A stretch of 64,000 nt of DNA, taken from Thermofilum sp. Its GTDB lineage: Archaea > Thermoproteota > Thermoprotei > Thermofilales > Thermofilaceae. Below the pieces are notes generated by a model. It was not told where the DNA came from, made no database searches, and was given only the letters and a program-made list of their open reading frames with translations. Location of the stretch: positions 180,918 through 244,917 of the forward strand of contig JAVYKX010000001.1 in assembly GCA_038741495.1 (NCBI GenBank). Direction: 5' to 3'. A program made the translations under genes and the position numbers. Shown piece after piece: positions 37,972 through 39,583 of this stretch (position 1 is its first letter; every line of letters starts with the position of its first letter).

Positions 37972-38700
37972 ATGTTCGTCGACGCTCACGTGCACCTGCA
38001 CGAGTTCACTTTAAAGGAAGTAGAGGAGTTCATCGACTTGGGAGTTGTGCTGGTAGCGGTGAGCGATGACTATGACTCTTCTGTTAAAACTCTTGAGCTT
38101 CGCGACTTTTTCCCCGGCCGCGTCAAGGCGTGCGTCGGCATACACCCGTGGAAGATCCCTGCAGAGGGCGTCCCTGCCTCGCTTATAGATAGCTTGCTGG
38201 ATCTAGTCAGAGAGGCTGACTGCGTAGGGGAAGTAGGCGTTGACCTCAAGTTCGTACCAGAAACTTTCGAGGCACAGCGCGAAGCGTTCAGAGTTCTTGC
38301 CAGAGAGGCTGCAAAACTTGGGAAGCCCATCAACGTTCACGCTGCTGGCGCGTGGCAGGAGGCTCTCGCAGTGCTGGCGGAGCTTAATGCACCCAAAGCT
38401 TTATTGCACTGGTACACGGGCCCCGAGGGGCTGCTGCCGCTTCTCTCAGAGAGGGGGTACTTCGTCTCGATAAACCCGGCCGTGAAGATCCAGAGGAAGC
38501 ATCGGGATCTTGCCGCGAGGGTGGACCCCTCCATGCTTCTCACCGAGAGTGACGGCCCCTACGATTACAGGGGGCTGAAGCTAAGTCCCAGGCTAATACC
38601 TGAGCTCGTAGCGGATATCGCCGCTCTGAGAGGAGTAGCGTCCGCGGAGATCGCCAGCGTTGTCAGGGAAAACTTTAACCGGCTGTTTCCAAGAAAGTAG
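37972..38700 (+). CDS. TatD-like metal-dependent hydrolase
   Basis: This 242-residue TIM-barrel hydrolase of the TatD group shows FVDAHVHLHEFTLKE (metal histidines), VGIHPWKIP, CVGEVGVDLKFVPETF, the two histidines in PINVHAAGAWQEAL and ALLHWYTGPEG, and the aspartate in LLTESDGPYDYRG. TatD proteins are 3'-5' exonucleases or related hydrolases. It begins three bases after the IMPase stop. A box C/D sRNA begins within a few bases of its stop, so both may come from one transcript. Confidence 0.9.
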   Translation: MFVDAHVHLHEFTLKEVEEFIDLGVVLVAVSDDYDSSVKTLELRDFFPGRVKACVGIHPWKIPAEGVPASLIDSLLDLVREADCVGEVGVDLKFVPETFEAQREAFRVLAREAAKLGKPINVHAAGAWQEALAVLAELNAPKALLHWYTGPEGLLPLLSERGYFVSINPAVKIQRKHRDLAARVDPSMLLTESDGPYDYRGLKLSPRLIPELVADIAALRGVASAEIASVVRENFNRLFPRK

Positions 38701-38702
38701 CC

Positions 38703-38760
38703 TGGGCCTGATGACTACTTCCGGAGCTGACGAGTGATGTGAACTTACCCGGCTGACCCC
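38703..38760 (+). ncRNA. Box C/D sRNA (2'-O-methylation guide), double-guide type
   Basis: The order and spacing fit archaeal C/D guide RNAs exactly. Box C is TGATGA at 38709-38714. Guide 1 is CTACTTCCGGAG (12 nt). Box D' is CTGA at 38727-38730. A four-base spacer follows. Box C' is TGATGT at 38735-38740. Guide 2 is GAACTTACCCGG (12 nt). Box D is CTGA at 38753-38756. GGG before box C can pair with CCCC after box D. Guide 2 is complementary to CCGGGUAAGUUC, which I recognise from memory as the conserved helix 71 region of 23S rRNA. The D+5 rule predicts methylation of the last G of GGG, about G1950 in E. coli numbering. I could not place the guide 1 target. Confidence 0.85.
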
Positions 38761-38812: not shown

Positions 38813-39583
38813 ATGAGGGTCGAGGATTTAGGAGGTTATAAGTTGGTTGTACGCAGAGACGTGCGGCTGAGGAAAGGGGTTCTCGTGCAGGGGTTACCGG
38901 GAATAGGGCTAGTCGGTAAGATTGCTGTAGACTATATCATCGCTAACCTGCACCTACCGCTCTTTGCGGAGCTTTTCGGGCCCGGGCTGCTGCTCCCCGT
39001 AGGTAACGCGGGTGTTTTCGTCGACGGCTCGGGGGTTCTGCGCCTACCTTCGTACAAGTTCTACCTCCTTGAGCGGGACTCAGGAGACGTGGTCTTCCTT
39101 ACGAGCGAAGTTCAGCCGGTGAGCTGGGGGCAGTACGATGTTGCTGAAAGGGTACTGGACTACTTTGTACGGATAGGAGGTAGGGAGGTTATAGGGGTTT
39201 GCGGCACTTCATCGGAGAGCGAGGAGATCGAAGTCTACTACGCTCTAGCCGGAGACCTCGACGAGAAGAGGTTTGAGGCACTTAATCTCAAGAAGAGCTC
39301 GGGAGGCACTATCACCGGTGCGTGCGGCCTCCTCCCGGCGCTGGCAGCTATGCGGGGTCTCTCAGGCTACGTCATCATGGGGAGCACGAATACCTCTGAG
39401 CCCAACCCTGCTGCTGCGCGGGAAGTCATAGTAGCTCTCTCGAAGCTCTTAGGTATTGAGGTGAACCTTGAGGACCTGGATAGGATGATCAAGGAGGTGA
39501 GGAGCCGCGAAGAAATAGCGAAGAAGCTGCTAGAGCAAATGGAGAGGAGGCCGGAGCCCAGTCTCCCCTCCTGGTACGTTTAA
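38813..39583 (+). CDS. PAC2 / proteasome assembly chaperone-like protein (COG1938)
   Basis: This 256-residue cytosolic protein belongs to the archaeal PAC2-like family, which binds immature proteasomes in some organisms. It shows VLVQGLPGIGLVGKIAVDYI, FAELFGPGLLLPVGNAG, ERVLDYFVRIGGREVIGVCG and the glycine-rich ITGACGLLPALAAMRGLSGY, followed by a C-terminal helical region (MIKEVRSREEIAKKLLEQME). No proteasome gene is in the window. GGGAGGA precedes the ATG, and CTTTTATTC near 38775 is a probable TATA box. Confidence 0.85.
   Translation: MRVEDLGGYKLVVRRDVRLRKGVLVQGLPGIGLVGKIAVDYIIANLHLPLFAELFGPGLLLPVGNAGVFVDGSGVLRLPSYKFYLLERDSGDVVFLTSEVQPVSWGQYDVAERVLDYFVRIGGREVIGVCGTSSESEEIEVYYALAGDLDEKRFEALNLKKSSGGTITGACGLLPALAAMRGLSGYVIMGSTNTSEPNPAAAREVIVALSKLLGIEVNLEDLDRMIKEVRSREEIAKKLLEQMERRPEPSLPSWYV

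Follow-up and report, generated by a model that had tools for sequence, protein, structure and literature searches.

The analysed window, a stretch of 64,000 nucleotides from Thermofilum sp., an archaeon of hyperthermophile type, carries on its forward strand a gene for a TatD-family hydrolase (37972-38700, from gene call and synteny) and downstream of it a gene (38813-39583, from the same two kinds of evidence) that we take to be PAC2-like on general knowledge rather than a family search. The TatD stop codon TAG occupies 38698-38700, and immediately after it, on the same strand, lies a small guide RNA (38704-38759) which is almost certainly an archaeal double-guide box C/D sRNA and a candidate for directing 2'-O-methylation of 23S rRNA, as judged from its sequence, Rfam alignment, a family model and the conservation of the spacer. 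It is enclosed by a short GGG/CCC end stem (38704-38706/38757-38759), within which follow box C (UGAUGA, 38709-38714), guide 1 or D' guide (CTACTTCCGGAG / CUACUUCCGGAG, 38715-38726), box D' (CUGA, 38727-38730), the D'-C' spacer CGAG (38731-38734), box C' (GUGAUGU, 38734-38740), guide 2 or D guide (GAACTTACCCGG / GAACUUACCCGG, 38741-38752) and an exact box D (CUGA, 38753-38756). Across 19 homologues the TGA and GA of box C, the GA of box D' and the TGA of box C' are invariant, as is the core of box D. Box C is preceded by C and not by the consensus purine (CUGAUGA versus RUGAUGA), and box C' ends in T, not A, its first G also closing the four-base spacer. Boxes D' and C' lie close together, as in archaeal box C/D sRNAs generally. 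A sequence-only reading had already assigned the locus to this class, with boxes C, D', C' and D, two 12-nt guides and a four-base spacer; each of these elements is found at the coordinates given here, and the assignment stands when compared with the 23S gene of the organism itself and with its relatives.

The sRNA is a real, deeply conserved gene, and an ordinary one within a known class. It lies between the TatD and PAC2 homologues in all seven genus genomes (7/7), in which the two flanking proteins diverge by as much as about half (TatD identity falls to 48%) and the spacer between the two genes is about 116 to 443 bases long, the box cores and guides forming the clearly conserved block of these seven spacers. 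A covariance model built on sequence only gave one match in each of the 7/7 genus genomes and matches in 58/81 genomes of the class, a count in which many of the weakest matches are partial and may be other C/D sRNAs. The D guide with box D was found, at one mismatch or less, in 8/27 genomes of the order, and the exact C'-guide-D pattern, reaching into other orders, in 19 stretches among 84,980 species, of which 18/19 are labelled archaea (17 of Thermoprotei type and one Bathyarchaeota). The single non-archaeal match (L062) is on a contig labelled as a Deltaproteobacteria MAG and is probably misbinned.

A second, convergent box C/D sRNA is present in the same tatD-PAC2 spacer of several genus members (L096, L078, L105, L104 and L089), downstream of the first and on the opposite strand. 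The D guide of this second sRNA, GUACCAAACCG with some variants, matches 23S 2640 (GCGGUUUGGUAC) by complementarity, and its homologue in the genome of the window lies elsewhere (G000:C1, about 143400-143480).

Alignment of both guides to the organism's own 16S, 23S and tRNA genes, a check proposed with the sequence-only reading, places both on the 23S gene (L001:1501-4590), guide 2 pairing at 12/12 positions and guide 1 over 9 bp, with guide lengths inside 10-12 nt and the N+5 base paired in both cases. That reading had described guide 2 as fully complementary to helix 71 sequence of 23S rRNA and had predicted the methyl site at the third G of GGG, about E. coli G1950, and the pairing with the 23S gene agrees with both; it had been able to name no target for guide 1, for which one is now found 44 nt upstream of the guide 2 site, where helices 68 and 69 of this 23S meet.

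Guide 2 is complementary over its full length to CCGGGUAAGUUC / CCGGGTAAGTTC at 23S 2102-2113, and the complementarity holds in relatives, although in several genus members position 1 or 2, adjoining box D, is mismatched. Opposite the fifth guide base from box D stands G2106, the last G of the GGG, and the N+5 rule accordingly gives a predicted Gm at this position. With the conserved UAAC of helix 69 as the reference point (E. coli U1911 is 2067 in this 23S), we take G2106 to be E. coli G1950 in helix 71; here and throughout, E. coli numbers are presumed equivalents. Yeast Gm2288 was considered as a counterpart of E. coli G1950 and rejected, since we take it to correspond to about E. coli 1945.

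Guide 1 pairs over 9 bp, including one G.U, with CCGGGAGUA at 23S 2060-2068, on the 5' side of helix 69. Positions 3-11 are paired continuously, including the N+5 base, and positions 1, 2 and 12 are unpaired; the N+5 rule gives a predicted Gm at G2062, presumably about E. coli G1906 at the helix 68/69 junction. The target could be assigned from the D' guides of relatives, which read UACUCCCGG; the guide studied here (UACUUCCGG) is one transition away, giving the G.U pair. Relatives pair better, over 9-11 bp at the same 23S site, and when each guide was compared with its own genome's 23S, the D' N+5 base fell on G2062 (E. coli ~1906) in all Thermofilales genomes tested except one (G018). In a Desulfurococcaceae genome (G038), the 23S has CCGGGGGTAA for CCGGGAGTAA, and the guide compensates by carrying C in place of the U of the other guides; the N+5 base there is one position on, equivalent to G2063. 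The sRNA very probably guides two sugar methylations of the organism's own 23S rRNA, at sites separated by 44 bases. Among 33 tRNA loci, taken with flanks that include neighbouring genes, guide 1 gave partial matches only, of at most 10.5 of 12, which do not stand out from background. In two Desulfurococcaceae, G031 (L072, L074, L076) and G037 (L073, L075), the 23S helix 68-71 stretch matches only in separated pieces, which suggests that rRNA introns interrupt or adjoin the sites targeted by the sRNA.

Whether the CTGA and TGATGA boxes could be a chance run in a spacer that holds no RNA gene was weighed against simulation and family searches. The Rfam search at gathering thresholds returned no family match for the sRNA, and its folding energy is nothing unusual (z -0.2), as would be the case for chance boxes; an unusual folding energy is, however, not expected of C/D sRNAs. 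Membership in a specific Rfam C/D family fell short at 30.5 versus 37 bits for sR7, 27.6 versus 36 for sR9 and 20.1 versus 39 for sR28; ten archaeal C/D-box families (these three among them) and one yeast family nevertheless align at the same start with low score, the best E being 2.4e-5 for a 251-base search and all lying under gathering scores. Over both strands of the 64 kb there is a single strict C-D'-C'-D pattern; in 200 Markov-simulated windows the frequency per 64 kb is 0.0 when the pattern is strict and 0.01 when it is loose. Of the window's 12-mers, 36/127,978 have a perfect complement in the organism's own rRNAs, so that chance does not account for a guide matching at 12/12 positions within such a frame. 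Since the sRNA is, moreover, conserved throughout the genus and found widely in the class, a chance origin is scarcely credible.

Given a genuine box C/D sRNA, two other accounts of guide 1 deserve consideration. Its target might be 16S rRNA at 630 (CCGGGGGUA), with which it forms 9 consecutive pairs, two of them G.U, instead of 23S 2060. The relatives' guides fit the 23S site with no G.U, and the G038 guide changes along with its own 23S site, which makes a 16S target very improbable. It is also conceivable that guide 2 alone works and that guide 1 has decayed here into an empty or orphan guide, as its 9 bp with a G.U, its two mismatches adjoining D' and its replacement in other lineages would allow. 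The N+5 base still pairs, however, within a continuous run from position 3 to 11, and the same site is kept in all other genus members and in the related Thermofilales genomes having a 23S, except G018; we therefore regard a single-target sRNA as unlikely, and the double-guide reading is retained.

The pairing of the two guides varies between lineages. In Vulcanisaeta-type genomes guide 1 is replaced by a guide to the helix 69 loop, its N+5 base being an A, a site that we take to be about E. coli 1913, and G018 (L092 / L057) keeps the same D guide with a D' guide swapped for UACCGCCAGUGG, which is 12/12 complementary to 23S 2008. These replacements indicate that the coupling of the two guides is not fixed and that guide 2 is the stable half. 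A broader proposal, to which we give rather less than even weight, is that an sRNA coupling a helix 68/69 guide to a helix 71 guide is an ancient device for rRNA folding that selection has preserved in the Thermoproteota, with guide 2 nearly fixed and guide 1 either drifting by a single base or giving way to guides for other 23S sites in the vicinity.

The sRNA may be produced in either of two ways. A TATA-like CTTTAA (38673-38678, forward strand), a candidate promoter inside the TatD coding end, begins 35 nt ahead of box C, counted to the first base of the box. Of 35 distinct family members, 20 have a TATA-like hexamer beginning 29-35 nt ahead of the same box, with 1-8 in other bins (binomial p about 4e-8, to be taken only as a guide as the rows are related). 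This element at a conserved distance suggests that the sRNA can have its own promoter, which makes processing one of two possible routes. The distance from TatD to the sRNA ranges in other genus members from about 15 to over 200 nt. On its upstream side TatD directly adjoins other genes, which makes read-through into the sRNA possible, and processing from the TatD transcript is likewise possible; according to a review (PMC7994747), the majority of archaeal C/D sRNAs either arise by processing of longer transcripts or overlap the ends of coding regions.

The same genome encodes the protein machinery of such an RNP, with one gene for fibrillarin (PF01269, E 9.8e-99), one for Nop5 (PF01798, E 8.9e-77), these two matches being adjacent, and two L7Ae-family genes (PF01248, best E 1.3e-29), either of which could be L7Ae. 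The sRNA would be made from its own weak promoter in the tatD end or by trimming of an operon transcript, L7Ae would bind the C/D and C'/D' k-turns, and Nop5 and fibrillarin would join, giving an RNP that would 2'-O-methylate 23S rRNA at G2106 through guide 2 and at G2062 through guide 1. Since the two guides occupy 5' strands, guide 2 that of helix 71 and guide 1 that of helix 69, the sRNA would have to bind unfolded pre-rRNA, and it probably also aids folding of the 1906-1950 region.

With this locus the Thermofilales gain a comparison-supported sRNA gene, no C/D sRNA set having been found for the group in the literature searched, together with two exact methylation predictions in the 23S subunit interface and one clear case of guide-target co-variation usable for the study of guide evolution. 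The picture of how C/D sRNAs work is unchanged by it. The Rfam families sR7, sR9 and sR28 have the same box layout and length and align to 38704-38758, with scores below gathering, but their guides differ. As presented in the main text of Dennis et al. 2015 (PMC4644070), the C/D sRNA sets of Sulfolobus, Pyrobaculum, Thermoproteus and Ignicoccus follow the same box consensus, 10-12-nt guides and N+5 rule, and likewise include two guides to nearby rRNA sites and the archaeal 2'-O-methylation hotspot in helices 68-71, which that text names without the individual site. Unlike the archaeal sets as described there, the Thermofilum sequence scores above no Rfam family's gathering score. It is usual for the two guides of one sRNA to address sites no more than 100 nt apart (PMC7994747). 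The Haloarcula Gm1950 C/D sRNA (E. coli 1909, helix 69) has homologues in 25 archaeal genomes (Grosjean et al. 2008, PMC2584109); this 'G1950' was considered as a helix 71 site and rejected, as the Haloarcula numbering corresponds to E. coli 1909. Like guide 1 here, the Haloarcula sRNA carries a guide to the helix 69 region, and the position predicted for guide 1, E. coli ~1906, lies three bases from the Haloarcula site at E. coli 1909 (PMC2584109).
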